Under the pieces are notes generated by a model. That model did not search any database. It worked only from the letters and a program-made list of their open reading frames with translations, and was not told the DNA's origin. Below, one piece after another: positions 5,805-39,493 of a stretch of 64,000 nucleotides of DNA. The DNA lies in contig NZ_CP033972.1 of assembly GCF_003855095.1 (NCBI RefSeq), positions 2,232,001 to 2,296,000 of the forward strand, in the 5' to 3' direction. Numbering within the stretch: the stretch's first letter is position 1; each line of letters opens with the position of its first letter. Source of the stretch: Gordonia insulae (GTDB taxonomy: Bacteria; Actinomycetota; Actinomycetes; Mycobacteriales; Mycobacteriaceae). The position numbers and the translations under genes are program-made.

Positions 5805-5818
5805 CTTTACGTGTACAT
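5805..5818. promoter_or_regulatory. Degenerate copy of the island operator
   Basis: The plus strand reads CTTTACGTGTACAT, 10 of 14 matches to CTATACATGTATAG. Its complement shares TGTACACGTA with the degenerate site at 17346-17359, which supports it as a real variant. It lies 27 bp upstream of the SDR start at 5778. Confidence 0.45.
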
Positions 5819-5905
5819 GCCGCTTTGGCGAAGGTGCATGCGACTGGGAATCCCCGGATGTCTTTCCCGCCTAGGTTGTCGGTGCATCCGCAACGGATAA
5901 CGAAA

Positions 5906-5943
5906 GCGCGCGCGGCGTCGAGTCCTCTCGCCGCCGCGCGCGC
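5906..5943. terminator. GC-rich hairpin between importer operon and SDR
   Basis: Perfect 12-bp arms (5906-5917 and 5932-5943, made of GC repeats plus GGCG) flank a 14-nt loop. On the minus strand it follows the substrate-binding-protein gene by about 80 bp and is followed by a short T run (TTTCG), so it probably ends or attenuates the importer operon. Confidence 0.5.
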
Positions 5944-6020
5944 ATCCATCCCCTTTTGTGAGTCCAGATCCGAGTCGGACCCGCGCATGGGGGTGCGCCT
6001 GGTGCCGGCCTCCGCGGGTG

Positions 6021-7271
6021 CTACCCCTGGGATTTCGAGAGCAATTCCAGACCGTTGTACAAGGTGTCCGACGCCGGCACGAGTTGCTTCGACGCAGCAT
6101 CCCACTTGTTTGCGCGCACAGTTGTGTTGAACAGTCGATCCAGTCCGGGGATCGGTGTCTGTTGGGTGAAGTTCAGGGGAGGGACCACACCTAGATCGAG
6201 GTCGGTCGTCTTGTTCAGTTGGTCCAAAAGCGACGCACTGGTGACGTCACCGGAGATCTGCTCGGCCACCTTGTCCACAGCCTGTACTGCCAACCACGCG
6301 TTAAGGGATGTGGCCTTGCGTAATTCAGGTGCGGCAGCCTTGTCACCGGAAGCGAAGGCTGCATCCATCTCGGTAGTGAACTGCTGCAACTCCGGATACT
6401 CACTTGCCGCAGAGAAGGGCGGGAACGGGCCACTTTCGTAGAAGCCTGCCGCTGAGGGACCTGCGCTGGCAAGACTTGGTTCGGACAGAGCGCCTTGTGC
6501 ATTGCAATATTTCAGCTTGTTCCCACCTGCTCGCATGAGTGCAACGCTGCCCTGCTCGGTCGAGACCATGGTCACGCCGTCCGCGCCGCCGTCGACGAGC
6601 TGAGCTGCCGCAGGAGCGTAGTCACTGGTGTTCAGCGGCAGCTTGATATTTGGATCGATCGGTTTACCTGCGGCCACACCGCCCGCCTGGACCAGAGCCG
6701 CAGTCCGTTGGGACGCGGCTACATCCGAACTGATTCCACCTATTTGCTTGACCCCGTCAGCTGCCAAAACAGAAGGACAAGCTACGAAGCCAAAGACAGG
6801 GTTGTAGTAGACAAAGCTCATCTTGCTGGTCAGCTCAGAACCATCGCCCGCAATCCCGACGCTACCGACCGCGGGAATCGAGGCCGATTCGAGAGGCGCC
6901 ATCTCACCACCGGTCTGAGAGTACATCCCGACGACCGCGACCACCTTCTCGTCCACCGCTTGCTGTCCACACGCGGCAGCAGCGGTCGCGTCATTCTTGT
7001 TGTTGCACACAGTCAGCTCAACTTGCTGACCTTTGATACCGCCCCTGTCGTTGAGGGCGGTGACCGCAGCTTGCACCGCCGCGATCGACTCGGGCAGGTT
7101 CGCACCGCCGGTCGAGGTCTCGGTCGGTGCAACCGTCATCAGCTTGATCGTGCCACCTGACGATGACTCCGATGACCCACCGGAAGAGCCGTCACCGTCC
7201 GAGCACGCACCCATCGCAAGGACGAGTGCAGCCGCCGTCGAGCACACTCCAATTATCTTCTTATTGAACAT
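6021..7271 (-). CDS. ABC importer substrate-binding lipoprotein, branched-chain amino acid type
   Basis: A 416-aa exported lipoprotein. The N-terminus MFNKK plus a hydrophobic stretch ending in LAMGAC is a type II signal peptide with Cys about 23 as lipid anchor, followed by a Gly/Ser-rich linker. The body is a Leu/Ile/Val-binding (Peripla_BP_6) fold, with the usual opening on cluster-specific ligand segments and VVAVVGMYSQTGGE. Outside amino acid uptake, such proteins often bind aromatic or alicyclic acids. It is the last gene of the importer operon, 42 bp after the LivF-like gene, and sits in the operator-controlled island, so a catabolic substrate is more likely than Leu/Ile/Val. The ligand is unknown. 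Confidence 0.9.
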   Translation of the reverse strand: MFNKKIIGVCSTAAALVLAMGACSDGDGSSGGSSESSSGGTIKLMTVAPTETSTGGANLPESIAAVQAAVTALNDRGGIKGQQVELTVCNNKNDATAAAACGQQAVDEKVVAVVGMYSQTGGEMAPLESASIPAVGSVGIAGDGSELTSKMSFVYYNPVFGFVACPSVLAADGVKQIGGISSDVAASQRTAALVQAGGVAAGKPIDPNIKLPLNTSDYAPAAAQLVDGGADGVTMVSTEQGSVALMRAGGNKLKYCNAQGALSEPSLASAGPSAAGFYESGPFPPFSAASEYPELQQFTTEMDAAFASGDKAAAPELRKATSLNAWLAVQAVDKVAEQISGDVTSASLLDQLNKTTDLDLGVVPPLNFTQQTPIPGLDRLFNTTVRANKWDAASKQLVPASDTLYNGLELLSKSQG

Positions 7272-7313
7272 TTTTGCCTCTCATTGGTTACGAATGGTCC
7301 GAACTCTTCCGGA

Positions 7314-8021
7314 CTACGGGGTCGTGGCCGTGGATGTGTTGCCGCCAAGGTACGAAGATTCGATACGAGATTGATTTGCCAAGGCCTGGGCAGCTGTTCC
7401 AGACCAGTCGATGCGTCCCTGGCGTAATACGTAAACGCGGTCGGCAACCTGGAGCGCCTTCCTCACATGCTGTTCGACCAGCAGCACAGCCATACCGCTG
7501 TCGGCGGCCGATCTCACCGCGGTCAACAGTCGTGAGGTGATCTGAGGCGCAAGGCCGAGGGACAGTTCGTCAGCGAGCAGGGCGTCCGGTCGTCGGGCGA
7601 GTGCGCGAGCGAGGGTGAGAATCTGCTGCTGCCCACCCGAAAGTAGACCAGCCTTCCGATCGAGATGGTCAGCGAGCTCGGGATAGTCTACGACAACCGC
7701 TTCGGGATCTACTCTCGCCAGACGCAGATTCTGTCTCGCCGTCAGCGACATGACAACCGAACGTTCCTCGGTCACGATCGACAGGCCATGGCGAGTGCGT
7801 TGATACAGGGGAAGATGAGCTACCTCCCCCTTCCACCGTACCTCCCCGCGACTCGGGGACAGAGCACCTGCGAGGGCCATCAAGGTCGTGGTCTTCCCAC
7901 TTCCATTCGGGCCGAGCAACGCCACGACTTCGCCCGCATTCACTTCAAGTTCGAGGCCGTGTAGCACCGGGATCGGCCCGTATCCAACCTCGAGATCGCA
8001 GGCGGCGATGATGCTGGTCAT
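7314..8021 (-). CDS. ABC transporter ATP-binding protein, LivF type
   Basis: A 235-aa nucleotide-binding subunit. Walker A GPNGSGKT is at 37-44, the signature LSGGQQQ near 137, Walker B LLADE near 157 and the switch His in LLVEQH near 187. The length and the short form match LivF of branched-chain-amino-acid-type importers. The ATG overlaps the stop of the large permease-ATPase gene by one base (ATGA at 8019-8023), so the second ATPase is translated in step with it. Together with the fused LivH-LivM-LivG protein and the lipoprotein it completes one importer. Confidence 0.92.
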   Translation of the reverse strand: MTSIIAACDLEVGYGPIPVLHGLELEVNAGEVVALLGPNGSGKTTTLMALAGALSPSRGEVRWKGEVAHLPLYQRTRHGLSIVTEERSVVMSLTARQNLRLARVDPEAVVVDYPELADHLDRKAGLLSGGQQQILTLARALARRPDALLADELSLGLAPQITSRLLTAVRSAADSGMAVLLVEQHVRKALQVADRVYVLRQGRIDWSGTAAQALANQSRIESSYLGGNTSTATTP

Positions 8022-11005
8022 CAGTGACTCCCTACTGGTTCGGTGGTCGTGGCACCGAAGTACGCAACACGAACGCTGTCGTCTGCCTGGACCTCGTGCG
8101 GAGTGCCCTCGGCGATCTTTCGTCCGAAGTCCAAGACGATGACGTGGTCACTGATCTCCATCACAAAGTTCATGTCGTGTTCGATGAGCAGAACGCCCAG
8201 GTTCCACTCGTCGGCGAGCTTCCTTGTGAGAACCGCCAATTCAGCGCTCTCTTGCTCGTCGAGGCCGGCCGCCGGTTCGTCGAGGAGGAGAATCGACGGA
8301 CGGGTAGCCACCGCACGCGCAATCGCGACGAGGCGTCGCCTACCGTACGGGAGGTCACGGACCGGACGATGTAGATCATCCAGCAGATCGAACTCTTTGA
8401 TTGCCGCTATTGCGGTCGAACTGAGCGGTCGGTTTCCAGGGTGGACGAGATCAGTCGCATAGGCGGCCAGCCTCCGATCATCGCTCGCTGCCCTGATGTT
8501 CTCGAGCACGCTCAGGTCTTCGAATAGTTCGAGGTTCTGGAAGGAACGGCTGACACCCGCACGAGCACGTTTGTGGGCGGGAAGGTCGTGCAATGCTTGG
8601 TCGCCGAGCGTGACCTGCCCTGTAGCAGTGGGGCTGTACCCCGTGATGGCGTCTACAACTGACGTCTTGCCCGCACCGTTGGGTCCGATCAGCCCTACAA
8701 CCTTGCCGGCCTCGACGGTGAACGAGACATCATCAACGGCCCGAACCGAACCAAACCGAACACCGAGGCCGGCGACCGTCAACGTGACTGAATCAGCGCG
8801 GATATGCGTGGACTGTGCAAGCTGGCCCACCATCTCGGCCCGGCCGACGTCGCGCCGCCGGAAACGCTTCGGCACCTTGGAAGACACCCACGAGATCTGA
8901 TCCACTGTTGTCCCCGCGATCCCTCGACCACCCGGCTGCATCAGTACCAGGATCAGCACGATCCCGCCCACGAGTGGCAGGTACCTCTCGAGGTCACCCA
9001 GCCAGCCCTGGATGCGATCAGAGAAGACAACCCCCAGAACTGCGAACGTGCCAAGACCGACAACCGGCGCATATCGTGCCCATCTGCGGAATCTGACATT
9101 GTTCACAATTCTCTCTTGAACACTTTGTCCAACAACAAATCCCAACACCGCGGCAAGGACTGCACCGGCAACCCGCGCCAACGTGGCAGAACGGCTGAAC
9201 AGGCCACTGAGGCCGTCAGAGATCCGTGACGCCAGCGCACCCGCAACCAGAGTCGCACCAGCGAAGGCACCAGTGATGTAGCCGACACCACCGGCGACAG
9301 CGAAGGCGATGATCAGGATGCCCTGGAATGGATCGAACATCCCACCGCCGTAGGTGATGTTTCTCTGCTGAAACGCCAACAGCACACCGCCCGCGCCTGC
9401 AATCGCAGCGGACAACGCGAACGCGTACATCTTGGCCCCGAAAATGCTGATGCCCAAAGATGCAGCCGCACGCTCATTGGTCCTGACCGCAATCAATCTG
9501 CGCCCAACCCGGCCACGGCGAATGTTGGCCACGAGCAAACCGATCACCACCGCGGCGACCAGAACGAGAGTGGCATATCGCTCGGGATGAAGAGTGTTGT
9601 CGATGTCGATACCGAATAGTGTCGGCTCACCCACCAGCGTTCCCTCAGGCCTACTGAGTGCTTCTCCAAAGACCGAGCGGCCCGTGCCGGCGGGAGCCGG
9701 AGAGAAGTATTGCCGCTGAAAAAAGAAGGCGTCCACGGCAACTGACATTCCCAAAGTCACAACTGCGAGTTGAATTCCACGCGTTCGAAGCGCTGGAATC
9801 GCGAACAACAAGCCGACGGGGACGACAACAACGATCCCAGCGACAAATGCCAGTTCGAGCGGCCAGCCGTACACGGCGACAAGGCGTCCTGCGACAAGAG
9901 CAGAGATGCCGGCGAATGTGACCTGCGCGAGTGACAGCTGTCCGGTGTAACCGACCAGGACCACTACCGAGAGGAGCAGTATCGCCCAAATGGAGTTGAT
10001 TGTGAGCGCGTTGAGCCAGGTCGTCGGAAGGACCAACCAGATCATCGCCAACACAAGAAGACTGGCGATCAGCAGGGCGGGGACATTGATTCGTCCACTC
10101 CCAAGTCTGGGTAGCTTTTCGCTCAGGTGCCCTCGCTCAGGAATGCTTCGGCCACGAATCATCAGGAATACCGCGATCAGCAACACCGGCACAGCCTTAT
10201 CCAGCCCCTTCAACGAGGAACCGTCGCCGCTGTGGACCTGGATCTGCAGCTCCAGGATCGAGATCGCCAGTCCCGCAAAGAAGGCGATGGGGAAGGAAGT
10301 AAATCCCGCGACCAGCGCAACGGCTAGTGTCGGAACGATCAGGAGCAGTAGGTTTCCCGAACTCAGCGGGTTCTGGAGAGGGGCCAACAGCACTCCCCCG
10401 AGACCCGCCAGTGCAGCCCCGGCGAACCACGACATCCCGGCAATAGCGTCCGGTGACCAGCCCAGCGAGGCGGCCGACTGCTCGTTCTCCGCGACCGCAG
10501 TAGCCGCGTGACCATATGTCGTATAGCGATAGAACAGCCAGAGGCAGAGCGTTATCGCGGCAATGACGCCCAGTCGGACCAGGATATCCCAGCCGATCAA
10601 TTGACCGGCCAGTTCAATCTCGGCACGGGGGAGCACCGAGGGGGCCAACCGTGTCGCACTACCGAAGAGAAGCCCAACCGCTGCTTGGAGAATGATCAAC
10701 AAGCCGAGTGTTGCGATGACCTTGTTCAGCTGACTGGTCTCGCGCAATGCACGCATCACCACCACGTGAAACGCAAGCCCGATGACGCCGGTGACGAACA
10801 CTGTGATGATCCCAGCGAGCGCCCGTGGGATGTCCCAGGCTGTAGCGAGCTGGTCGAAGAAGTATGCAGCGAATAGCAAGAATCCGCTTTGGGCGAAGTT
10901 CAGGACACCTGTGCCGCGCCGAATGATGAGCACCCCACATGCGAGGAGCGCATAGAGAGCGCCCGTACCGAGGCTCAACAGCGTGTAGCCGAGGAAGCTT
11001 GTCAT
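8021..11005 (-). CDS. Fused LivH-LivM-LivG importer: two permease domains and an ATPase in one chain
   Basis: A 994-aa protein from ATG 11005 (MTSFLGYTLL, preceded by GAGAG); the frame is open to 11092 but that part looks non-coding. Residues about 1-290 are a LivH-like permease, about 320-640 a LivM-like permease, about 640-740 hold extra hydrophobic segments, and about 750-994 are a LivG-like ATPase. In the ATPase, Walker A GPNGAGKT is at 774-781 and Walker B ILLLDE at 905-910, while the signature reads LPYGRRR (885-891) rather than LSGGQ; LivG proteins often have LPYG. LivM-LivG fusions are known in actinobacteria; joining all three is less usual. First gene of the importer operon, with an island operator 153 bp upstream. 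Confidence 0.9.
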   Translation of the reverse strand: MTSFLGYTLLSLGTGALYALLACGVLIIRRGTGVLNFAQSGFLLFAAYFFDQLATAWDIPRALAGIITVFVTGVIGLAFHVVVMRALRETSQLNKVIATLGLLIILQAAVGLLFGSATRLAPSVLPRAEIELAGQLIGWDILVRLGVIAAITLCLWLFYRYTTYGHAATAVAENEQSAASLGWSPDAIAGMSWFAGAALAGLGGVLLAPLQNPLSSGNLLLLIVPTLAVALVAGFTSFPIAFFAGLAISILELQIQVHSGDGSSLKGLDKAVPVLLIAVFLMIRGRSIPERGHLSEKLPRLGSGRINVPALLIASLLVLAMIWLVLPTTWLNALTINSIWAILLLSVVVLVGYTGQLSLAQVTFAGISALVAGRLVAVYGWPLELAFVAGIVVVVPVGLLFAIPALRTRGIQLAVVTLGMSVAVDAFFFQRQYFSPAPAGTGRSVFGEALSRPEGTLVGEPTLFGIDIDNTLHPERYATLVLVAAVVIGLLVANIRRGRVGRRLIAVRTNERAAASLGISIFGAKMYAFALSAAIAGAGGVLLAFQQRNITYGGGMFDPFQGILIIAFAVAGGVGYITGAFAGATLVAGALASRISDGLSGLFSRSATLARVAGAVLAAVLGFVVGQSVQERIVNNVRFRRWARYAPVVGLGTFAVLGVVFSDRIQGWLGDLERYLPLVGGIVLILVLMQPGGRGIAGTTVDQISWVSSKVPKRFRRRDVGRAEMVGQLAQSTHIRADSVTLTVAGLGVRFGSVRAVDDVSFTVEAGKVVGLIGPNGAGKTSVVDAITGYSPTATGQVTLGDQALHDLPAHKRARAGVSRSFQNLELFEDLSVLENIRAASDDRRLAAYATDLVHPGNRPLSSTAIAAIKEFDLLDDLHRPVRDLPYGRRRLVAIARAVATRPSILLLDEPAAGLDEQESAELAVLTRKLADEWNLGVLLIEHDMNFVMEISDHVIVLDFGRKIAEGTPHEVQADDSVRVAYFGATTTEPVGSH

Positions 11006-11111
11006 ATTTCTCTCTATGTGGATGGACACAGAAGGCCGCAGATATCGTGAAATAGGCTGGCTGTCTGCGGATTCCGGCGCCGAACTGATCACCTGGAGAT
11101 AGGTCCTTCGG

Positions 11112-11157: not shown

Positions 11158-11171
11158 CTATACATGTATAG
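11158..11171. promoter_or_regulatory. Island operator, perfect palindrome
   Basis: CTATACATGTATAG, an exact 14-bp palindrome, lies upstream of the importer operon (first start 11005). The same 14 bases recur at 16031, 24755, 29198 and 34401, with variants elsewhere in the island. Confidence 0.75.
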
Positions 11172-16030: not shown

Positions 16031-16044
16031 CTATACATGTATAG
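16031..16044. promoter_or_regulatory. Island operator, perfect palindrome, divergent promoter
   Basis: CTATACATGTATAG lies between the hydratase start at 15988 (minus) and the acyl-CoA dehydrogenase start at 16099 (plus). Its position can control both transcription units at once. Confidence 0.78.
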
Positions 16045-17345: not shown

Positions 17346-17359
17346 CTGTACACGTATAC
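17346..17359. promoter_or_regulatory. Degenerate island operator upstream of the CoA-transferase operon
   Basis: CTGTACACGTATAC matches the 14-bp consensus at 11 positions. It is 49 bp upstream of the CoA-transferase ATG at 17408, the same spacing range as the perfect sites. Confidence 0.55.
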
Positions 17360-17407: not shown

Positions 17408-19687
17408 ATGACCAACTCGATCCTGGAGGGCATCCGCATCATCGACCTCGCGTCGGGACTCGCGGGGCCTATGGCCACCCGCCTCCTCGCCGAAGCCGGT
17501 GCGGACGTCATCAAAATCGAGCATCCGGAAGGCGACCCGATCCGGGAACACCACCCGGCAGCGTTCTCAAACTGGAATCGAAGTAAACGGAGCATCGTCC
17601 TCGACCTGAATACGCAGCAGGGCCGTGATCATCTCCTCGGCCTCCTCGCAGAAGCAGACATCCTCGTCCACGGATTCAGCCCAGCGCGGGCCGCAGCGCT
17701 AGGCCTCGACGATCAGACGCTTTCGCAGCACAATCAACACCTGATCGTGAGTGCGGTGACCGGGTATATGCGCACACACCCTGACGCCGAGAAGCCGGGT
17801 TACGAAGTACTCGTACAGGCTCAAACAGCGATGATGGACGAGCAGATGGGTCACGACGATGGCCCGACTCACTTGCGACTGCCGCTCGCGAGCTGGACCG
17901 CAGCTTATCTGGCGGCGTCCGGAATACTGGCGCGACTGATCCTTCGACAAAGAACAGGTAAGGCCGGACCTGCCCACACAAGCCTGCAGCAGGGCGCATA
18001 CGCCGCAATGGGGTGCTTCTGGAACCGCGAAGAGCATCCGACCGAGTTCCTGATCGCCAAGATCCCACTCCCCAAACGTATGGCATTCCCGGCGATTACG
18101 CTCTTCAGATGTGCCGATGGCCGTTGGATACAAACACTCGGTGGTTTCATGGAGAACCCACTCGTCATCGAAACGATAGCGATGATGGGCGAAGAGTACG
18201 TATTCGTTCCGTTTCAGCAGATGCCTACGCCGGAGCAAAAGGATCTGTGGCAAAGGATGTTCGAGCAGCGAGACTCTGGCGAGTGGCTTCAAGCATTCTG
18301 GGACGGCGACGTACCGGCCGGCATGGTCTATAGCATCGGCGAGGTCCTCAAGGATCCACAAGTGATCGCCAACGGTCACGTCACGGAAGTCGATGACCCC
18401 GTGTGGGGGAAAGTACGCCAGAGCACCAACCCATTTCACCTGTCACCGGCAGGGATGGTTCAATCGGCGGCACCGACCCTGGGTCAACACCAGGGCGAAT
18501 CATGGTCTGCCCGAAATGAACTCTCCGTATCACCGTCGGGTCCGTACCCCCGGCGCCCCCTTGAGGGGCTCAAAGTCCTCGATTTCGGAATGTTCCTGGC
18601 CGGCCCATTCGCTCCATCCCTCATGGCGGACATGGGAGCAGATGTCATCAAGGTCGAAGCAACAACCGGCGATCGGATGCGTATCTCGGAATTGATGTTC
18701 ATCGGCTGTCAACGCGGAAAGCGTTCCTTGGCAATCGATCTCACCAAGGATGAGTCCCGCGACGTAATCGAACGCCTCGTCAAGTGGGCGGACGTCGTAC
18801 ATCACAACCTGCGCCGACCCGCAGCAGAGTCTCTCGGAATCGACGAGCCGACCTTGAGGAAGATCAAACCCGACCTCATCTACTGCCATGTGAGCTCGTA
18901 CGGTTCGGAAGGCCCGAGAGCGGATTGGCCAGGATACGACCCCATTGCGCAGGCGTACTCAGGACACATGGACGCCGGAGCCGGAAAAGGCAATCCCCCG
19001 ATGTGGATTCGCAGCGCACCCCTCGACTTCCAAACCGCCTTGTCGTCGCTTGTCGGAACACTCCTCGCTGTCTACCAGCGAGACAGGACCGGGAACGGAA
19101 ACATGGTGACAGCCTCCTTGATGGGGATCGCCGCCACCCTGAACAGCGAAACCATGATACTTCCCGACGGCAGCTTTGCGCCGACACCCGAGCTCGACCA
19201 CGATCAGAAGCTCGTCGGTGAGGGGTATGGCGTCTACCGGACCGGGGATGGATGGGTGGCAGTCGCGGCGGTCGGCAAAACCAAAGTCGGCCGGCTGCGG
19301 GAGGCGGTGGGAGCTACGAGTGAGACCACGCTGGCAGCAGCTTTCGCCGCATTGTCCGTCGACAAGGCACTCGCCTTACTCGGCGAAAGTGGCATACCGG
19401 CAGAATCTGTCCGTGTGGACTACCAGGACGAGTTCTTTGACGACCCGGATAATCAGAGAGTGAAGCTGGCAACTCACACCGAGCACAAGGTCTATGGGCG
19501 AGTCGACAACGCAGGAGCGTTCTGGGTCTTCGATGACCTCGACTTGACGCTGGATCGTCCTGTCCCCCTTCTCGGCGAACATTCGTCGGAAATACTGGCA
19601 GATCTCGGCTTCGAGGACGCCGCGATGTCGGCGATGACAGACAACGGAACCGTTGTGGTCACCGACGTTGCCTTCATTCCCCGATGA
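17408..19687 (+). CDS. Tandem CaiB/BaiF CoA-transferase (two domains fused)
   Basis: A 759-aa protein made of two complete family III CoA-transferase domains, about residues 1-375 and 383-759; each begins with the typical EG-(I/L)-(R/K)-(I/V)-x-D segment followed by AGP and GADVIK(I/V)E. Aligned by eye to E. coli CaiB, the catalytic Asp is present in the second half (Asp540, APLDFQTALSS) but replaced by Ser in the first (Ser162, PLASWTAAYLA). Family III enzymes normally work as interlocked homodimers, so this chain may be a self-contained pseudo-heterodimer with one active site. GAAAGGAC precedes the ATG. The stop overlaps the thioesterase start (ATGA at 19684). Confidence 0.9.
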   Translation: MTNSILEGIRIIDLASGLAGPMATRLLAEAGADVIKIEHPEGDPIREHHPAAFSNWNRSKRSIVLDLNTQQGRDHLLGLLAEADILVHGFSPARAAALGLDDQTLSQHNQHLIVSAVTGYMRTHPDAEKPGYEVLVQAQTAMMDEQMGHDDGPTHLRLPLASWTAAYLAASGILARLILRQRTGKAGPAHTSLQQGAYAAMGCFWNREEHPTEFLIAKIPLPKRMAFPAITLFRCADGRWIQTLGGFMENPLVIETIAMMGEEYVFVPFQQMPTPEQKDLWQRMFEQRDSGEWLQAFWDGDVPAGMVYSIGEVLKDPQVIANGHVTEVDDPVWGKVRQSTNPFHLSPAGMVQSAAPTLGQHQGESWSARNELSVSPSGPYPRRPLEGLKVLDFGMFLAGPFAPSLMADMGADVIKVEATTGDRMRISELMFIGCQRGKRSLAIDLTKDESRDVIERLVKWADVVHHNLRRPAAESLGIDEPTLRKIKPDLIYCHVSSYGSEGPRADWPGYDPIAQAYSGHMDAGAGKGNPPMWIRSAPLDFQTALSSLVGTLLAVYQRDRTGNGNMVTASLMGIAATLNSETMILPDGSFAPTPELDHDQKLVGEGYGVYRTGDGWVAVAAVGKTKVGRLREAVGATSETTLAAAFAALSVDKALALLGESGIPAESVRVDYQDEFFDDPDNQRVKLATHTEHKVYGRVDNAGAFWVFDDLDLTLDRPVPLLGEHSSEILADLGFEDAAMSAMTDNGTVVVTDVAFIPR

Positions 19688-21237: not shown

Positions 21238-21251
21238 CTTTACATGTATAG
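21238..21251. promoter_or_regulatory. Island operator, one mismatch, divergent promoter
   Basis: CTTTACATGTATAG differs from the consensus only at base 3. It lies between the crotonase start at 21102 (minus) and the ligase ATG at 21271 (plus), ending 19 bp before the latter. Confidence 0.72.
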
Positions 21252-22919: not shown

Positions 22920-24563
22920 TCATTCCGACTCGGCCAAATCCTCACGGAGAACGCGTCGCAACAGTTTTCCTGACGCGGAGTACGGAAGCAAGTCGCGAAA
23001 CTCGACGGTCTTGGGTACTTTGTACTTCGCAACCGAGTGAGCAAGTTCGCCGAGGATCTCAGAGGCGAGGTGATCATCGGGACGATGACCCGCAGCCGGC
23101 ACCACCACCGCGTGCACTCGCTGCCCCCACTCCTCGTCGGGCAGACCCAGCACGGCGACGTCGTCCACAGCGGGATGGGTCCGCATCACGTCCTCGATCT
23201 CTGCGGGATAGATGTTCACCCCTCCGGAAAGGATCATGTCGGTGCGCCTGTCGACGAGATACAGCCATCCGCTGCCATCGATGTACGCCATGTCCCCAGT
23301 CGTGAAGTACTCTCCGCGCCGCGCTGACACGGTCTTTTCTGCATCGCCGAAGTATTCCGATGCCAGCCCCCCAGGATTCCGAATCCACAGCGTTCCGGTC
23401 ACTCCTGCGCCGACGCCGTTGCCGTCCTCATCGAGGATCTGCATATCAGCGCCGTTGCCGTCAACACGTCCGACACTGCCCGGATGCTCGAGCCAGTCCT
23501 GGGGCGAGATGCTGGTGCCGAAACCTTCGGTCGACGCATAATATTCGTAGAGAACGGGGCCCAGCCACTCCATGATGTGCCGTTTGACAGTGACCGGGGT
23601 TGGTGCGCCCGAATGCGATACAACCTGCAGCGTGCTGGTATCGAACTGTGCCCGCTCATCGGCGGTGAGCTGCAACAGACGGTAGAAGTGGATAGGCGCC
23701 AGTTGAGCGGTGGTGACCCCATGACGCTGAACGAGCCTCAAGAACTCTCTGCTGTCCCACTTGTCCATGAGGACGAGACTGTGCCCGTGATGAAGCGCCT
23801 GTGTCCCCCAGCCGAGGGGCGCTCCATGGTATAGCGGTCCACTCACCAGACTGACCGCTGCGACGTCGTGCTGCATTCCACGCAGTGCCATCAACGGATC
23901 GAGCGCCCTGGCAGCTGACTCCGGATCCACCTCCCGCGAGGGCCAACTGACGCCTTTGGGCCTGCCAGTCGTGCCGGAGGTGTACATCATCACCGATCCG
24001 TGCACGCGGTCCAACGGTGGGTCCTCGCTGTACTGGTCGATGAGATCCGAGAACCTCCGACCGGAGGACGTGGACGGTCCCAGCAGGAGACACCGGTCAG
24101 ACGGCAATGATGCTGTCGCCATCGCCAGTTGAGCGACCGACTCGTAGTTCGCGTGCACCAACAGCAGCCTGCTGTCACTATTCGTGACGATATATGCGAT
24201 TTCGGGTGCGGTGAGGTGATAGTTCACTGGAACCACCTTGACGCCAACCTGTTCGGCACCCAGCAGGATTGCCAGGAAGTCCGCACAATTCGGCGACAAC
24301 AGCGCAACGCGGTCACCGGCGACAATGTTTGCTGCGCGCAACGCGTGTGAGATTCGGTTGGCCAGTCGGTGTAGTTCGCCAAACGTGTGGGATGTCCCAC
24401 CGGGTTCGACCACCGCGATGCGGTCGGGGTTGAGGTCCGCGTACTGGAAGAAGCTGTCGGGCCGAGCGACTGCAGGCACATCGTCCGCACGGACACCGCC
24501 GTCCTTATAGACCTGCACGAGCAACCCCTTCCACGATGCGTGGACAACTTCCACCTTCGCCAC
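22920..24563 (-). CDS. Acyl-CoA synthetase (ANL superfamily)
   Basis: A 547-aa ligase starting at GTG 24563, the only usable start before an upstream stop; GGGA lies about 8 nt before it. Motifs: MYTSGTTGRPKG, YYASTEGFG, TGDMAYID, VDRRTDMILSGG, and SASGKLLRR at the C-terminus. It belongs to a different ligase subgroup from the 11588/21271 pair and resembles the FadD13/FadD19-like acid:CoA ligases. An exact operator lies 192 bp upstream, so the leader is long. Single-gene unit between a convergent ligase and the TetR gene. Confidence 0.9.
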   Translation of the reverse strand: MAKVEVVHASWKGLLVQVYKDGGVRADDVPAVARPDSFFQYADLNPDRIAVVEPGGTSHTFGELHRLANRISHALRAANIVAGDRVALLSPNCADFLAILLGAEQVGVKVVPVNYHLTAPEIAYIVTNSDSRLLLVHANYESVAQLAMATASLPSDRCLLLGPSTSSGRRFSDLIDQYSEDPPLDRVHGSVMMYTSGTTGRPKGVSWPSREVDPESAARALDPLMALRGMQHDVAAVSLVSGPLYHGAPLGWGTQALHHGHSLVLMDKWDSREFLRLVQRHGVTTAQLAPIHFYRLLQLTADERAQFDTSTLQVVSHSGAPTPVTVKRHIMEWLGPVLYEYYASTEGFGTSISPQDWLEHPGSVGRVDGNGADMQILDEDGNGVGAGVTGTLWIRNPGGLASEYFGDAEKTVSARRGEYFTTGDMAYIDGSGWLYLVDRRTDMILSGGVNIYPAEIEDVMRTHPAVDDVAVLGLPDEEWGQRVHAVVVPAAGHRPDDHLASEILGELAHSVAKYKVPKTVEFRDLLPYSASGKLLRRVLREDLAESE

Positions 24564-24754: not shown

Positions 24755-24768
24755 CTATACATGTATAG
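24755..24768. promoter_or_regulatory. Island operator, perfect palindrome
   Basis: CTATACATGTATAG lies between the stop of the TetR gene (24833) and the CoA synthetase start (24563), both on the minus strand. It would control the synthetase separately from the regulator gene. Confidence 0.72.
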
Positions 24769-24832: not shown

Positions 24833-25432
24833 CTACGAAGGCGGATAATGATCCAACAGACCGGCGAGCGCATGATCGAAACTCTTGCGAGAACGGAGTT
24901 GCATCAGATACGCCGACATATCGGCATCCGGGTGGGAGGTCGGCGCGGTTTGAAAGTTGGCACTCTCGTGTACCAAAAGGTGACCGAGTACGAGTTGTTG
25001 CACGCCCGCGTACGCCTCTTGCGCACGATCGCGGTCCAGCCCCGCTCGTTCGAACTGTCGAATGCTGAAGAACAACAGACGTCGGGCGTTGGGGAGCAAC
25101 TTGCTTGTCAAGACCACCGAGCTCAATCCAGGAAGGCTCAGCAAAGAGTCAATCGAGGCGTTCACGGTGTACGTGAACAGGTCCCGCCATTCACCAGACT
25201 CGGGATCAGGAAGGTCGATTTGACCGAGCAGCTCATCACCGACAAGTCGGAGGAGTTCATCCTTGTCCTCTACATGATGGTAGAGCGCCATTGCCGACAC
25301 CCCCAGCTGAGCTGCTACAGCGCGCATCGTGAGCTTCTCGATCCCGCGTTCCCGGATCATCTCGGTCGCGGTTGCCGCGATAGCGACACGCCCCAAGGGG
25401 CTGCGCTCGCGAACAGATTTCTTGGTGGCCAC
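24833..25432 (-). CDS. TetR-family transcriptional regulator, candidate island repressor
   Basis: A 199-aa regulator from GTG 25432. The N-terminal helix-turn-helix is LTMRAVAAQLGVSAMALYHHVEDKDELL (about residues 36-63); the rest is the helical TetR_C ligand-binding domain. Its central position among the operator-bearing units makes it the best candidate to bind CTATACATGTATAG, perhaps released by a CoA-thioester intermediate. However, its own promoter region holds a different inverted repeat (GTACGA-7-TCGTAC at 25469-25487) and only a weak match to the consensus, so it may instead bind that. It is divergent from the beta-lactamase-like gene. Confidence 0.88.
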   Translation of the reverse strand: MATKKSVRERSPLGRVAIAATATEMIRERGIEKLTMRAVAAQLGVSAMALYHHVEDKDELLRLVGDELLGQIDLPDPESGEWRDLFTYTVNASIDSLLSLPGLSSVVLTSKLLPNARRLLFFSIRQFERAGLDRDRAQEAYAGVQQLVLGHLLVHESANFQTAPTSHPDADMSAYLMQLRSRKSFDHALAGLLDHYPPS

Positions 25433-25468: not shown

Positions 25469-25487
25469 GTACGAACTTTACTCGTAC
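25469..25487. promoter_or_regulatory. Inverted repeat GTACGA-7-TCGTAC in the TetR promoter
   Basis: Six-base arms separated by seven bases, 37 bp upstream of the TetR GTG and in the divergent space to the gene at 25560. The position suits autoregulation by the TetR protein. Its sequence differs from the island operator apart from GTAC elements. Confidence 0.45.
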
Positions 25488-25526
25488 AACTCGATTCTTC
25501 GTGCGTCGGCACCCCAAGCCAGTACG

Positions 25527-25540
25527 TGAAACATGTATCA
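25527..25540. promoter_or_regulatory. Weak operator-like site before the beta-lactamase-like gene
   Basis: TGAAACATGTATCA keeps the central ACATGTAT and matches 9 of 14 consensus bases. It is 20 bp upstream of the TTG start at 25560. Too weak to call alone. Confidence 0.25.
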
Positions 25541-25559
25541 CAACACAAAGGAGCATCCA

Positions 25560-26657
25560 TTGCAGCCTCAACGAGTCGACCATCGACGACTCAACATCTT
25601 GCTAGACCGCATCCGACTTGAGATTGACAACGGCACACTGCCATCGGCGCAGGTCTCAGTCTCGGTCAACGACGAGGAATACGCTTTCGAAGCGTTTGGG
25701 CAAGCAACCACCGATACGCGGTACGTACTGCAGTCAGCCGGCAGGCCCGTTGTGGCCGGTGTGGTCTGGAAGCTGATTTCCGATGGACTGTTGGACATCT
25801 CGAGATCGGTCGCGTCGTACATTCCCGAATTCGGTAGTAATGGCAAAGACATCGTCACCGTTGAGCAGGTTCTCACCCACATGGGCGGATTCCCGCTGGC
25901 GCCTCTCGCATTTCCTCAGATGCTCGACCGCGACAAGCGCCTCGAGGCGTTCGCGAAGTGGCGCCTGACCTCGGCACCGGGTACCAAACTCGAGTTTCAC
26001 TTGACCTCTGCCGCCTGGGTGATCGCCGAACTGTGCCAGCGTGTCACCGGCTCCCCGATCAGCGAGTACCTCCGCTCGACATTGACCGAGCCACTACACC
26101 TCGACAGCATCGAGATCGGACCACCACTCGCCGCCCAAGACAACGTGGCACCGTTCGTGCGGGTGGGCGCCGCCGACGACAACTCTGAGGTCTACCCGTG
26201 GGGGCCATGGTATCTCGCGAGACCAGAGATCCTCGCTGCCGGCGAACCAAGTCACTCGATGGTTGCAAACGCATCCGACCTTGCACGCTGGTACCAGGCC
26301 TTGATGCACTCACCGCTCTGGCGACGCGATGTCGTCGAAGACGCGTTGCGCATTCGGGTCAGATTGCCGATCGAAGGTGAACGCGGCGGCACCGCCAGCG
26401 TACCTGGCAATATTGCACTTTTCGTGGCAGTAGTCGGCGACGACGGCCTGTCGCGTGCGTTCCTGCCGACAGCGACGGGTCCGACGACCTTCGGCCACGG
26501 CGGTGCACCGTGCCAGATCGCCTTCGGCGACCCCAGCACCGGATTGTCGTTCGCATTTCTGACCAACGGATACCCGCCATCCGGCTACGATCAGTCCCGC
26601 GCCGGACTGAACCGGATCATCAACATCGCCAATCTTGCGGCAGACTGTCTCGCCTGA
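25560..26657 (+). CDS. Beta-lactamase/serine hydrolase family protein with altered catalytic motifs
   Basis: About 365 aa from TTG 25560, chosen because AAAGGAG lies 8 nt before it; an ATG at 25533 in the same frame has no such site. The fold is that of class C beta-lactamases and DD-peptidase-like esterases. The SxxK motif reads SAGR (Ser59 to Arg62), so the essential Lys is Arg, and the YxN position reads HLT (about 147-149). FGHGGAP matches the third HxG motif. It may be a non-catalytic or differently catalytic relative. There is no signal peptide, so it is cytoplasmic. Divergent from TetR; convergent with the FadE pair. Confidence 0.75.
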   Translation: MQPQRVDHRRLNILLDRIRLEIDNGTLPSAQVSVSVNDEEYAFEAFGQATTDTRYVLQSAGRPVVAGVVWKLISDGLLDISRSVASYIPEFGSNGKDIVTVEQVLTHMGGFPLAPLAFPQMLDRDKRLEAFAKWRLTSAPGTKLEFHLTSAAWVIAELCQRVTGSPISEYLRSTLTEPLHLDSIEIGPPLAAQDNVAPFVRVGAADDNSEVYPWGPWYLARPEILAAGEPSHSMVANASDLARWYQALMHSPLWRRDVVEDALRIRVRLPIEGERGGTASVPGNIALFVAVVGDDGLSRAFLPTATGPTTFGHGGAPCQIAFGDPSTGLSFAFLTNGYPPSGYDQSRAGLNRIINIANLAADCLA

Positions 26658-29188: not shown

Positions 29189-29220
29189 CATCCCCTACTA
29201 TACATGTATAGTAGGGGATG
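29189..29220. promoter_or_regulatory. 32-bp perfect palindrome containing the island operator
   Basis: The core CTATACATGTATAG (29198-29211) is extended on both sides by CATCCCCTA / TAGGGGATG with no mismatch. It lies between the FadE start at 29133 (minus) and the amidohydrolase start at 29286 (plus), so it can serve both. It is the longest perfect palindrome seen among the sites. Confidence 0.8.
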
Positions 29221-29285: not shown

Positions 29286-30365
29286 ATGACGAAGATTTGG
29301 GCCAACTCCGCCGATTCTCACGTGCTAGAGCCCGACGACCTCTGGACTCAGCGCCTGCCACAACGACTGGCCGACCGAGCGCCCCGCGCCGAACGCGGCG
29401 AAAAATTTGAGGTGCTGTACATCGACGGCAAACAGATCAACCGACAGTTGAACGATTTCATGGACGCAATCCGCCCCCCGGGCGCTCGCGATCTCGACAT
29501 TCGACTGAAAGACCTTGACCAAGAGGGCGTGTGGGCACAGCTTGCCTTTCCTTCCATGGGCTTTTGGACCGTAGAGATCCAAGATCCCGAGCTCGCGCGC
29601 GAAGTCGTCCGCGCATGGAACGACTGGGCCTACGAGGAAGTTCTGCAGAAGAACGACCGCATCTTCACTCCCGCGATCGTTCCCATCGCGGATGTCTCTG
29701 ACGCCGTCGCTGAGCTCGAGCGGGCAGTGGGAATGGGATTTCAGACGGTATTTCTGCCGTGCGGGACCAGGCCGGGTGAAGAGTGGGGCCTCGACAAATG
29801 GGAGCCGCTGTGGGCCGCCGCCGAGGAACACAACACGGTTTTGTCTTTCCACATCGGAACTGGCGGTGAGAACGTCGTGTACCGGGGCCCCGGTGGGGCT
29901 GTCGTGAACTACATGGAGACGACGTATCCAGGCATGAGGGTTGTGTCGCACATGGTTGCAGGTGGCGCCCTCGATCGGCATCCAGACCTCAAAATCCTCA
30001 TCGCCGAGGGCGGCGCAGCATGGGTGCCCGCAATAGGCGACCGCATGGACGAGGCCTACCGTCAGCACGGGATGTTCGTGCGCCCAAAGCTTGATCGCCT
30101 ACCCAGCGAGATCGTTCGCCATCAGGTGTATGCATCGTTCCAGCACGACATCAGCGGCGTTCAGATCATCGAGGGGACCAACTACCGCAACGTCTGCTGG
30201 GGTGATGACTATCCACACCTCGAGGGGACATACGGTCACACTCAGGAGACCCTGCGCACACTGTTTGACGGCGTCGATCCGGCAATCCAAGACAGGGTCT
30301 TACGCGGCACGTTCGCGGAACTGTTCCGCATCCCGGAACGAACCGCACAAGACGAGGCACGTTAG
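29286..30365 (+). CDS. Amidohydrolase-2 family metal-dependent hydrolase
   Basis: A 359-aa TIM-barrel enzyme of the ACMSD/gamma-resorcylate decarboxylase family (amidohydrolase 2). Likely metal ligands are in NSADSHVLEP near the N-terminus, LSFHIGTG in the middle and WGDDYPHLEG near the C-terminus. Family members decarboxylate or hydrolyse ring or conjugated acids. GAAGAGGGA precedes the ATG. It is very similar in layout to 46910-48046 (same HPDLKIL, GGA-x-W and YASFQHD segments), the first gene of the 44-48 kb operon. Here it is followed after 3 bp by a CoA ligase gene. Confidence 0.9.
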   Translation: MTKIWANSADSHVLEPDDLWTQRLPQRLADRAPRAERGEKFEVLYIDGKQINRQLNDFMDAIRPPGARDLDIRLKDLDQEGVWAQLAFPSMGFWTVEIQDPELAREVVRAWNDWAYEEVLQKNDRIFTPAIVPIADVSDAVAELERAVGMGFQTVFLPCGTRPGEEWGLDKWEPLWAAAEEHNTVLSFHIGTGGENVVYRGPGGAVVNYMETTYPGMRVVSHMVAGGALDRHPDLKILIAEGGAAWVPAIGDRMDEAYRQHGMFVRPKLDRLPSEIVRHQVYASFQHDISGVQIIEGTNYRNVCWGDDYPHLEGTYGHTQETLRTLFDGVDPAIQDRVLRGTFAELFRIPERTAQDEAR

Positions 30366-34366: not shown

Positions 34367-34393
34367 TCGCCGTCAATGCGGATGCCTGTCGTG

Positions 34394-34421
34394 CGGCCAA
34401 CTATACATGTATAGTTGGCCG
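34394..34421. promoter_or_regulatory. 28-bp perfect palindrome containing the island operator
   Basis: CTATACATGTATAG (34401-34414) is flanked without mismatch by CGGCCAA and TTGGCCG. It lies between the aldehyde dehydrogenase (minus, 34366) and the DUF35 gene (plus, 34510), serving a divergent promoter. Confidence 0.8.
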
Positions 34422-34440
34422 GTGTGAACGGGTTCACACC
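34421..34440. promoter_or_regulatory. Inverted repeat with GTGAAC-GG-GTTCAC core
   Basis: GGTGTGAAC and GTTCACACC are perfect 9-bp arms around GG. It directly abuts the operator palindrome and lies in the leader of the DUF35 gene. The same core occurs at 11112-11135. Confidence 0.5.
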
Positions 34441-34509
34441 GAATATTTCACCTACCGAACGGGTGTTGCCGCCGGACGGCGAGCCCGAGACCGCGCGATT
34501 GGAGCTGCC

Positions 34510-34962
34510 ATGGCATTGAAGTCGATAGCCGAAAGACTGTTCGTAGAGGTCGACGACGGCGTTCAACTGATCGGAGGTCGCTGCGACGACTGCAACGAGG
34601 TCTTTTTTCCGACGCGAAGCACGTGTGGACGATGCCAGAGTGAGCATGTCACCGACGAGACTCTGCCCCGGCGCGGCAAGGTGTGGACCTGGACAAGCCA
34701 GTCATTCCTGCCGAAAGAGCCCTACAACGGCTCGGAAACCGAGGCAGACTTCGAGGCATTCGTAGTCGGGTATATCGATCTCCCCGGTGCGTGCATCGTC
34801 CAAGGCAGGATCGACGTCCCCGCTGACCGAGCCGTCGAGTTGGCGGACCTGGGAACCGAAGTCGAGTCCTTCGCCTACGAGTTCAGACGCCGGAGCGATG
34901 GAGAAATGGTCCATACCTACGCATTTCGTCCGGTTGTCACGAAGGCAGGGGAAACCAAATGA
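34510..34962 (+). CDS. DUF35 OB-fold protein with zinc ribbon
   Basis: A 150-aa protein from ATG 34510 with GGAG 6 nt upstream; the frame is open to 34327 but that part covers the operators. Zinc-ribbon Cys are at about 25, 28, 39 and 42 (CDDC...CGRC), followed by the OB-fold with VWTWTSQSFLP. Its ATGA overlap with the next gene (34959) indicates a stable pair with the Cys-containing thiolase-like protein. First of five coupled plus-strand genes (34510-39031). Confidence 0.9.
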   Translation: MALKSIAERLFVEVDDGVQLIGGRCDDCNEVFFPTRSTCGRCQSEHVTDETLPRRGKVWTWTSQSFLPKEPYNGSETEADFEAFVVGYIDLPGACIVQGRIDVPADRAVELADLGTEVESFAYEFRRRSDGEMVHTYAFRPVVTKAGETK

Positions 34963-36122
34963 GCAACTCTGATTCGATCGCGATCATCGGAATCGGCATC
35001 CACCCTTTCGGGCGCTTTGATGCCAGTGCCCAGGACATGGCCCTGACCGCAATCCGGTTGGCACTCAAAGATGCCGGCGTCACGTGGCCAGACATCCAGA
35101 TCGCTACCGGCGGTAGCTTGGACGGCGGGCAGGCAGATGTGATGGTCGGCCAACTCGGCCCCACCGGCCTACCTTTCATCAACGTCCTCAATGGCTGCGC
35201 CACAGGCGCCGCCAGTCTCATCACCGCACGCAACATGATCACCAGCGGTATGGGCGATCTCGGATTGGTGGTCGGGTTCGACAAACACCCACGTGGAGCG
35301 TTCACGGCGCCCGACGTGACCACGTGGGGCGTAGGCCACTGGTACGGGGAGACGGGGATGTTCGTCAACCCGCAGTTCTTCGGGATGAAGGCTCGCCGAT
35401 ACATGCACGACCACGACATTCCCCTCGAGAGTCTGACCGATGTCGCCGAGAAGGCATTCAGGAATGGCGAACTCAATCCCAATGCCTGGCGGCGCAAGCC
35501 CATCCCACGCGAGCAGATCGAAAACTCGCGCCTGATCAACGATCCACTTCGCCAATTCATGATCTGCTCGCCGAGCGAGGGAGCCGTCGCGCTCGTGGTC
35601 TGTCGCGCGGAGGTGGCCGACAAGTACACCGATTCACCGATCTACGTCCGAGCAGCGGAGTTGGTCAGTCGTAAGTACGGGTCATTCGAACTGTTCCAGA
35701 CCTCGCTCCCGCACGACCTGCCGCCTACACCGTCCGAGATGTCGTCGCAAAAAGCTTATGCAGCAGCAGGACTGACCCCACAAGATATCGACGTGTGGCA
35801 GGTGCAAGACACCGAAAGCGGTGCCGAGATCATGCACATGGCCGAGGTCGGGCTCTGCGAACACGGAGCGCAACCAGAACTCATCCGCTCGGGTGCCACC
35901 TCCATCGGTGGTTCACATCCGGTCAACACCGATGGTGGCCTTCTCGCCAACGGGGAGCCGGTCGGGGCATCCGGTCTGCGAATGGTCTATGAAGCGAGCC
36001 TCCAGCTACGAGGGCAAGCCGGCGAACGTCAGGTAGACGATCCCCAGACGGCGTTGACCCACGTCTACGGTGCCCCTGGAATCAGTGCGGCCACAATCCT
36101 GAGCAAGGTGGCCTCGTCGTGA
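34959..36122 (+). CDS. Thiolase-like protein (SCP-x type) that keeps the nucleophile Cys
   Basis: A 387-aa thiolase-fold protein. Unlike the other four Ltp-like proteins in this window it has a Cys at the nucleophile position (Cys80 in VLNGCATGAAS) and lacks their YD-x-F motif, having VQDTESGAE there. The His of the classical GHP-x-GASG motif is Glu (GEPVGASG, Glu333). It may therefore do true thiolysis or condensation rather than retro-aldol cleavage. The partner is the DUF35 protein encoded immediately upstream; the stop overlaps the GTG of an acyl-CoA dehydrogenase. Confidence 0.87.
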   Translation: MSNSDSIAIIGIGIHPFGRFDASAQDMALTAIRLALKDAGVTWPDIQIATGGSLDGGQADVMVGQLGPTGLPFINVLNGCATGAASLITARNMITSGMGDLGLVVGFDKHPRGAFTAPDVTTWGVGHWYGETGMFVNPQFFGMKARRYMHDHDIPLESLTDVAEKAFRNGELNPNAWRRKPIPREQIENSRLINDPLRQFMICSPSEGAVALVVCRAEVADKYTDSPIYVRAAELVSRKYGSFELFQTSLPHDLPPTPSEMSSQKAYAAAGLTPQDIDVWQVQDTESGAEIMHMAEVGLCEHGAQPELIRSGATSIGGSHPVNTDGGLLANGEPVGASGLRMVYEASLQLRGQAGERQVDDPQTALTHVYGAPGISAATILSKVASS

Positions 36123-38222: not shown

Positions 38223-39031
38223 CCGAGCAAACGACAACTCCACATTGCCGATTCGACGTCGTCGAGGATCGCATCGCCCGGCTGACAATCAATCGCCCTG
38301 AGCGCCTGGGAGCGTATACGCCACAAATGTGTTCGGAGATGCTCGCCGCAGTCAAACGAGTACAACTCGATGATTCGATTCGCGTGCTGATCCTCACCGG
38401 CACAGGCCGAGGGTTCTGCACCGGTGGCGATGTTTCACCAGACGCCGGGTTCGGCGACGCGCTCTCTCACCAAATCGGGCGGGCACGAGAACTCCGCGAA
38501 GATTCTCACGCGCTTGTGACCGCGCTTCACAAGTTGGACAAACCAGTCGTCTGCGCAATCAACGGAATCACTGTCAACGGTGGCCTCGCGTTCGCTCTGG
38601 CCTGCGATATCCGGATTGTCGCGGCCAGTGCCCGACTCGGCGACACCAGCGGGCGAGCTGGGCTGCTGCCCGATGAGGGCGGTGCTTGGCTGTTCCCCCG
38701 GACGATGGGATACGACAAGGCGTTCAGAATGGTCACCCTATCGGAGATCTATGACGCCCAGACTGCGCTCGGGCTGGGGTTGGCGACCGAAGTCGTGCCC
38801 GACGAAGAGCTCGAAATGCGTGCCCTCACCCTCGCAAGACAGTTCGCACAGGGGGCGCCACTCGCAATCCGAGCGGTGAAGATGATGATGAGGAGAGCTA
38901 TGGAAAGCACCCTGGAGTCGTCCCTGGGCGATTCTCAGCAGGCAGTATTGTGGGTGGGTCCGAGCAACGACGCACTGGAAGGCAAAACGGCCTTCCTCGA
39001 GCGACGGAGCCCGAACTTCACCGGCAACTGA
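38219..39031 (+). CDS. Enoyl-CoA hydratase/isomerase family protein
   Basis: A 270-aa crotonase with GTG start overlapping the previous stop (GTGA at 38219-38222). Oxyanion-hole segments are FCTGGDV (about 67-73) and NGITVNGGLA (about 115-124). The first acid/base position reads GDTSGRAGLLPDEGG, so the classical Glu pair of hydratases is not complete; Glu/Asp near 152-153 may act instead. It closes the operon 34510-39031 and would act on the enoyl-CoA made by the heteromeric dehydrogenase. Convergent with a small conserved gene at 39044. Confidence 0.86.
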   Translation: MTEQTTTPHCRFDVVEDRIARLTINRPERLGAYTPQMCSEMLAAVKRVQLDDSIRVLILTGTGRGFCTGGDVSPDAGFGDALSHQIGRARELREDSHALVTALHKLDKPVVCAINGITVNGGLAFALACDIRIVAASARLGDTSGRAGLLPDEGGAWLFPRTMGYDKAFRMVTLSEIYDAQTALGLGLATEVVPDEELEMRALTLARQFAQGAPLAIRAVKMMMRRAMESTLESSLGDSQQAVLWVGPSNDALEGKTAFLERRSPNFTGN

Positions 39032-39043
39032 GTGACCTGGATA

Positions 39044-39340
39044 TCAATCCGACGCCGGAAGGCGCTTGGGATCCTTGACCGTCATCGGGACACCATCGAC
39101 CGCTAGTGTCCCGGTGCCGGCCTTTGTCACCAACAATTCGAGACCGTGATCGATCGACTCGTAGCGCTTACCGATCACTGCTCCCCCGGCCTCGCTCGAT
39201 GCAACCTTGGAAGGCGTCGCCGAACTCGCCATCGGGACGCCCCCACAGGTCACGGTCGCGTCGGTGGCGGATACCGCGATGACGATGACCTCCGCATCGC
39301 AGGTCGCGCTGTACAACCGGGACCCAATCTTCAGGGACAT
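39044..39340 (-). CDS. Small conserved hypothetical protein with paired cysteines
   Basis: A 98-aa protein from ATG 39340 with GAGGA about 9 nt upstream; the frame is open to 39376. It opens MSLKIGSRLYSATCDAEV, has a second Cys in VTCGGVPM and ends with a conserved-looking KDPKRLPASD. I recall similar small proteins beside actinobacterial acyl-CoA genes but cannot name a function. It has its own degenerate operator upstream and is divergent from the amidohydrolase operon, so it is probably coregulated with the island. Confidence 0.7.
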   Translation of the reverse strand: MSLKIGSRLYSATCDAEVIVIAVSATDATVTCGGVPMASSATPSKVASSEAGGAVIGKRYESIDHGLELLVTKAGTGTLAVDGVPMTVKDPKRLPASD

Positions 39341-39391
39341 ACTGGCATTCCTCATCTGGTTGGTGGCTCGAGCCACAGGACCGGGCTCGGT

Positions 39392-39405
39392 TCGTACATG
39401 TATAG
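39392..39405. promoter_or_regulatory. Degenerate island operator
   Basis: TCGTACATGTATAG keeps one perfect half and matches 11 of 14 bases. It is 52 bp upstream of the small gene at 39340 (minus). Confidence 0.55.
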
Positions 39406-39479
39406 CACGTCGTCAACGCGAGTTCAGCCAAATCCGAATACCTACTTGACCTGGCGGAGCAGGCGCTATGTTTTCACAA

Positions 39480-39493
39480 CTATACGTGTATAG
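39480..39493. promoter_or_regulatory. Island operator variant with extended dyad
   Basis: CTATACGTGTATAG has one central mismatch. It sits in a longer inverted repeat, ACAACTATAC / GTATAGTTGT (39476-39485 and 39488-39497). It lies 98 bp upstream of the amidohydrolase ATG at 39591. Confidence 0.72.

Follow-up and report, generated by a model that had tools for sequence, protein, structure and literature searches.

A palindromic operator and a candidate TetR-family repressor travel together in a catabolic island of Gordonia insulae and other soil bacteria

Overview

A 64,000-nucleotide stretch of the Gordonia insulae genome (contig NZ_CP033972.1; the whole stretch is called the window below) carries a 14-bp palindrome, most commonly of the form ACTATACATGTATAGT, at the promoters of an apparent catabolic gene island, and the clustering and conservation of its sites confirm the observation of a recurrent, operator-like palindrome. 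The best explanation, to which a probability of about 0.85 is given from sequence comparison, is a local regulon run by the TetR-family protein encoded centrally at 24833..25432 (minus strand). We infer a mechanism, comprising TetR binding, repression, ligand, pathway and substrate class, in which this protein would bind the palindrome as a dimer at the island promoters (4.9–44.1 kb), would repress their transcription units, its own promoter weakly, and would leave the DNA once a metabolite of the pathway builds up, the probable signal being an acyl-CoA or else the acid. The island genes would import an acid or alcohol, activate it as coenzyme A (CoA) thioesters and degrade it by beta-oxidation, assisted by PtmU3-type monooxygenases for beta-hydroxylation and OB/thiolase retro-aldolases for C–C cleavage.

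Operator sites in the window and genome

The word CTATACATGTATAG occurs exactly at window positions 11158, 16031, 24755, 29198 and 34401; the window scan also finds it with one mismatch at 21238 and 39480 and with three at 17346 and 39392, and the site at 5805 has four mismatches. At three mismatches or fewer, there are nine matches in the window against 0.25 expected, and none of 100 shuffles reaches nine. In a scan of the whole genome (5,962,176 bases), CTATACATGTATAG is matched at two mismatches or fewer seven times, all within 11158–39493 of the window, and the reversed word, used as a control pattern, is matched nowhere at that threshold; the pattern CTNTACNNGTANAG has eight matches genome-wide, seven of them in the island, and its backward control has ten, located elsewhere. 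Scattering of the motif over the genome, which an earlier note on this DNA had named as a result that would overturn its proposal of a single regulon, was looked for in these scans and was not seen.

A position weight matrix was built from 50 sites of other genomes and none of the window; these were picked by having two mismatches or fewer to the reported word, so the matrix owes nothing to the window but does depend on the word. Its top 11 places in the window, with scores from 35.4 to 7.8 (the twelfth scores 2.9), are the ten sites of the earlier note, namely five exact, two with one mismatch and three weaker, together with one at 25476. In 60 simulated 64-kb sequences (first-order Markov, with only positions having an AC or GT core scored), the best score averaged 4.1 with a maximum of 13.8, which eight of the real sites exceed; 5805 (10.0), 25476 (9.5) and 39392 (7.8) fall below it, and these three rest also on their position. 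The added site, CTTTACTCGTACAA at 25476..25489, falls within the 100 bp that separate the TetR gene from a divergent serine-hydrolase gene, and other islands have sites at the same place. The TetR and beta-lactamase-like genes, thought earlier to have no operator, share this weak site, and with it counted every drawn transcription unit in 4.9–44.1 kb has one.

The remaining sites are placed as follows (matrix scores in brackets). The weak operator 5805..5818 precedes a short-chain dehydrogenase/reductase (SDR) gene at 4915–5781 (minus strand), 11158..11171 (29.4) precedes the ATP-binding cassette (ABC) transporter genes, and 16031..16044 (31.4) lies between a hydratase/SDR/thiolase/CoA-ligase operon (minus) and an acyl-CoA dehydrogenase gene (plus). 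CoA-transferase/thioesterase genes follow 17346..17359 (17.5); 21238..21251 (22.7) separates a hydratase gene (minus) from an acyl-CoA ligase gene (plus), and 24755..24768 (29.8) precedes an acyl-CoA ligase gene at 22920–24563 (minus). The site 29198..29211 (34.1), where the palindrome extends to 32 bp, lies between paired acyl-CoA dehydrogenase genes (minus) and the PtmU3-like gene (plus), and 34401..34414 (35.4), extending to 28 bp, lies between SDR and aldehyde dehydrogenase (ALDH) genes (minus) and an OB/thiolase/dehydrogenase operon (plus). The second oxygenase-like operon, starting at 39591, is preceded by 39480..39493 (32.1) and by a weak second operator at 39392..39405.

Start codons were chosen by eye from upstream sequence. 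The claim that all sites are intergenic stands if these preferred starts are used, but 21238, 34401, 39480 and 5805 fall within the longest open reading frames (ORFs), upstream of the better-judged starts 21271, 34510, 39591 and 5778/5781. Operator-to-start gaps, given earlier as 20–192 bp, are mostly about 20–100 bp, with exceptions of 135, 185 and 191 bp. The count of five divergent gene pairs is reached only with 25476, since four of the ten sites then noted (16031, 21238, 29198 and 34401) serve such pairs.

Co-occurrence of the operator with the TetR gene

In a search of 61 genomes (the own genome and 60 relatives), 60 give some TetR paralog, the best non-self match having 33% identity and an E-value of 1.2e-18; a wider search covered 397 genomes from the order, its displayed rows listing eight scored candidates for each genome, and only the window's own genome has the TetR at E<=1e-30. 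In a search of 5.8 billion proteins, the best 120 of 195 matches are 58–70% identical apart from the own record, with names of Mycobacterium, Mycolicibacterium, Rhodococcus and metagenomes among them, and no relative of the island TetR was found in viral contigs. Nine other records with this TetR at 56–66% identity were analysed: a plasmid of M. branderi, a plasmid of Rhodococcus BH4 and seven mycobacterial genomes or metagenome-assembled genomes (MAGs). The two Aquabacterium loci (L034 and L035), which have only 47-residue TetR matches, were excluded, and no operator site at three mismatches or fewer was found in them.

In each of the nine records, the sequence retrieved around the TetR gene contains one or more exact copies of the palindrome, which agrees with the earlier proposal of a single repressor over one compact island. 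At genome scale (the plasmid record for two of them), the nine records hold 57 sites at two mismatches or fewer against nine for the control pattern, and by our own count 48 of the 57 share a contig or record with the TetR gene and lie no more than about 45 kb from it; in M. aurum, all eight sites are within 36 kb of it. The operator word and the one putative repressor gene thus travel together between soil bacteria. In Rhodococcus BH4, a second TetR (L026, 35269–35868), 57% identical to that of the window, is accompanied by an operator-like site with four mismatches at 35922.

The comparison of orthologous islands that had been proposed earlier was made by placing the window proteins with tblastn on ten stretches of the nine records, and the operator is kept at orthologous promoters. 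Gene order is rearranged among the islands, yet the operator stays with the promoters: it precedes the second oxygenase-like gene wherever that gene is present, in ten of ten islands counting the window (M. branderi showing it only at three mismatches), separates the divergent dehydrogenase genes from the PtmU3-like gene in five of five islands, where the PtmU3-like protein is 89–93% identical to the window's, and precedes the ALDH ortholog (at least 76% identical) in eight of eight. In URHB0044 and M. branderi, whose ALDH homologs are only 41% identical, no operator stands in front of the gene.

Genomes without the TetR ortholog form a negative set. Six relatives in the genus have a PtmU3-like gene at 49–77% identity and no operator site at one mismatch or fewer; in five of them only distant TetR paralogs and no ortholog were found, the sixth (G074) being outside that search set, and in four of the six the surroundings of the PtmU3-like gene (15–38 kb) have no site at three mismatches or fewer. 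Since PtmU3-like relatives without the TetR are also without the site, the operator follows the TetR and not the PtmU3-like enzyme. Distant TetR genes (28–30%) are found near the PtmU3-like gene in G003, G026, G028 and G074; G028 also encodes a protein that matches one assigned to Gordonia polyisoprenivorans without a difference over 367 residues. The PtmU3-like gene at L061 (G026:C202:8615-9670) has one in-frame TGA and is apparently broken or affected by a sequencing error.

Sites at one mismatch or fewer are present in three of 59 genomes of the genus, the own genome (seven), G072 (one) and G020 (one), and in four of the 397 genomes of the order, the own genome, G131 (two), G144 (one) and G209 (one). 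In four of these five foreign genomes, ten ORFs close to the sites were selected by eye and scanned for families; GntR/UTRA matches were obtained in G131 and G144 and sugar-kinase- and dehydrogenase-like genes in G131, and the four ORFs of G072 and G020 gave no family match. The palindromes near GntR/UTRA genes are at 4540 and 10707 of L063 and at 6601 of L064, in two genomes of another family without a TetR ortholog.

The TetR-family protein and its neighbour

The protein at 24833..25432 matches PF00440 with 43.8 bits (cut-off 24) and has an N-terminal TetR helix-turn-helix and an all-helical fold; its predicted structure (mean confidence, pLDDT, 88) fits TetR and ActR best, with a structural similarity score (TM) of about 0.7. 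In a profile search, ActR, SimR-type and tetracycline repressors are among the best of 73 solved matches. Judging by the titles of their entries, these nearest solved relatives bind polycyclic ligands, so a polycyclic inducer would fit, by analogy, the structural relatives of the island protein. Identity in structural alignments is, however, about 20–26%, and curated NCBIfam cut-offs are not reached, either for the tetracycline repressor (43.4 vs 265) or for MftR2 (81.7 vs 285). The recognition stretch VSAMALYHH is invariant in 30 TetR homologs, the variant of BH4 being VSATALYHH. The divergent neighbour at 25533..26657 (plus strand) is a serine hydrolase of beta-lactamase fold (PF00144), whose orthologs, 71–75% identical, adjoin the TetR gene in M. 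aurum, AZCC_0083, Root135, BH4 and M. branderi.

Extended palindromic flanks

For flank analysis, 57 sites at two mismatches or fewer were taken from eleven stretches, window included. Nine of them continue as perfect palindromes for 6–11 bp per side (26–36 bp in total), namely 29198 and 34401 of the window, three of M. aurum, two of AZCC_0083 and two of BH4 (loci L026, L030, L032), and 44 extend two bases or less. Permuted flanks give a mean of 0.26 extended sites and none of 20000 permutations reaches nine, related sites not being independent; among other perfect 10-bp palindromes, two of 851 extend as far. The letters of the extended flanks differ between sites and between orthologous promoters, as at the dehydrogenase/PtmU3-like promoter of the window, M. 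aurum and AZCC_0083. Such flanks could result from operator-seeded fold-back template switching or from selection for a hairpin or cruciform.

Island genes and proposed chemistry

By Pfam content, the island encodes a branched-chain-type ABC transporter, five acyl-CoA ligases, hydratases, thiolases, OB/zinc-ribbon proteins, SDRs, an ALDH, a CoA-transferase, 'amidohydrolases' and acyl-CoA dehydrogenases (two adjacent pairs and one more). In the transporter, permeases and ATPase are fused (8021..11092, minus strand), a second ATPase lies at 7314–8021 and the binding protein at 6021–7271. The ORF at 17408–19687 encodes a 759-residue tandem type III CoA-transferase, whose first half matches structures of alpha-methylacyl-CoA racemase and the second those of formyl-CoA transferase.

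Oxygenase-type chemistry was absent from the earlier note. The protein at 29286..30365 (plus strand) has an amidohydrolase fold and matches PtmU3 with an E-value of 8.9e-141 and 201 of 350 residues identical (57%), and DitZ with 8e-38; from this match and its metal-site residues it is predicted to be a diiron monooxygenase acting on a CoA substrate. In PMC7782822, PtmU3 is described as a non-heme diiron beta-hydroxylase with a TIM-barrel fold, which acts in diterpenoid biosynthesis and can use CoA-ligated substrates; the same text gives the ligands of AibH2 and the Glu313 of PtmU3. The class name, amidohydrolase-related dinuclear oxygenases, is taken from PMC10811679. A second amidohydrolase-fold protein at 39591..40799 (plus strand) and a third starting at 46910 are 30% and 50% identical to PtmU3, and alignment finds D10, H12, H189, E241, D308, H311 and E313 kept in all three, H189 and E241 being matched to ligands by their spacing. 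The three proteins thus have the diiron ligands and the extra acidic residue (PtmU3 Glu313) of dinuclear oxygenases such as PtmU3 and AibH2.

OB/thiolase retro-aldolases of the Ltp2 kind have a thiolase fold without the nucleophilic cysteine and are paired with an OB/zinc-ribbon protein. Such a pair is suggested at 40827..42444 (plus strand), next after the 39591 gene, where the OB gene at 40827 pairs with a thiolase-like protein (41263–42444) that has no NGC motif by eye and whose nearest solved relative is 6ok1, which we take to be a retro-aldolase of the Ltp2 type. A beta-hydroxylation with a retro-aldol cleavage after it would form a coherent route past a quaternary carbon, and this oxygenase/retro-aldolase chemistry is judged somewhat more likely than not for the island. 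A diterpenoid or other polycyclic acid is the favoured substrate, with somewhat less than even odds for a polycyclic terpenoid acid, and alicyclic and steroid acids are possible too. Outside the operator-bearing region, at 45690–48046, the third PtmU3-like gene adjoins a thiolase-like gene that shows no such cysteine in the part of it read; the two probably form a separate unit with a different control.

Evidence against the proposed regulon and alternative explanations

Several observations weigh against the proposed regulon or its chemistry. Because the TetR itself led to the nine records, the positive set is a selected one, and nine of their 57 sites lie elsewhere: two in M. hodleri, about 130 kb from the TetR and near serine-hydrolase-like and thiolase-like genes, four on other contigs of the MAG G084, and one each in G085, G086 and G089. 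G072, G020, G131, G144 and G209 have one or two sites without a TetR ortholog (best 32%). As for the chemistry, the protein at 34959–36122 retains the thiolase cysteine, so the OB pair to which it belongs does not resemble the retro-aldolases; the island proteins scanned include no Rieske or ferredoxin partner of the kind used by AibH2; and since PtmU3-like proteins more than 70% identical are widespread in actinobacteria, the substrate may be a more common compound than a diterpenoid.

The palindrome may instead be read by another regulator, either the second TetR (48232–48876), the GntR/FCD protein (49934–50893) or one encoded elsewhere, with the central TetR controlling only its serine-hydrolase neighbour. 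The weakness of the TetR's own-promoter site (9.5) speaks for this, as do the GntR/UTRA genes adjoining sites in G131 and G144, in view of which the word by itself does not identify the protein that reads it, and another family may use it too; convergent use by the GntR/UTRA family is possible. But the second TetR has no match at E<=1e-20 in the ten other island stretches, the GntR protein matches in only two of the ten (33–42%), the annotated regulators in about 40 kb each of M. branderi and BH4 are TetR(s) and one CopG, and in several islands operator sites flank the central TetR gene. Control by another regulator is accordingly judged improbable.

Activation by the same TetR, the opposite sign of regulation, is slightly less probable again: the sites serve divergent promoters at varying distances, an arrangement typical of TetR repressors. 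The repressor KstR2 has that layout as well, according to the excerpted text of PMC3068626. Least credible is the view that the palindromes act mainly as hairpins or cruciforms, in RNA or DNA, and not as a protein operator. The nine long extensions with unrelated flanks, a number that permutation never reached, would suit it, but most sites extend two bases or less, the core letters are conserved across genera, and the palindromes lie upstream of genes, often between divergent ones. The local regulon is very probably under the central TetR.

Comparison with known systems

The regulon is of a familiar kind, and its operator and pathway were not found in the literature searched: no title on bacterial regulation was returned for the operator word, and titles and abstract openings on related clusters, KstR3, PtmU3/DitZ, and diterpenoid and Gordonia catabolism contained no report of the island. 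As far as the excerpt of PMC3068626 goes, the KstR2 regulon of mycobacteria and rhodococci shares with it a TetR-type repressor, a 14-bp palindrome with few sites, one catabolic cluster and divergent promoters, but differs in its motif AnCAAGnnCTTGnT and its steroid ring genes, the island having a CTATACATGTATAG core, eleven sites and other enzymes. A KstR2-type steroid regulon is ruled out by this difference in operator, and the earlier statement that the palindrome is not the KstR2 site stands, the letter-by-letter comparison covering the KstR2 motif only. KstR3 of Mycolicibacterium neoaurum, in the text consulted of PMC10398937, is likewise a negative regulator of the TetR-like type, whose gene neighbours those of an aldolase and a DUF35 protein, but it controls a four-gene operon of sterol side-chain degradation; it is set apart by description and not by sequence, the strings motif and palindrom being absent from the paper's text. 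The enzyme PtmU3 belongs to platensimycin biosynthesis, whereas the 29286 gene, alike to it in sequence and metal site, lies in a degradative-looking island.

Biological meaning

A bolder view, doubtful as a whole, is that the operator marks the master regulon of a mobile actinobacterial pathway for the degradation of polycyclic diterpenoid acids of the kaurane/atisane or resin-acid type, whose CoA thioesters would undergo diiron beta-hydroxylation and then retro-aldol cleavage. Such a pathway would be the degradative counterpart of the platensimycin PtmU3 step and possibly its origin, with operators that lengthen into long perfect palindromes by self-templated mutation. Whatever the substrate, the operator flanks offer natural material for studying the origin of perfect palindromes. 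The island offers a complete testable regulon, with a candidate regulator, eleven sites and about 31 predicted genes, occurs in Gordonia insulae as well as in Mycobacterium and Rhodococcus, in two cases on a plasmid, and ties PtmU3-type oxygenases to apparent degradation. An operator-driven reporter would reveal the inducing compound and hence the pathway.

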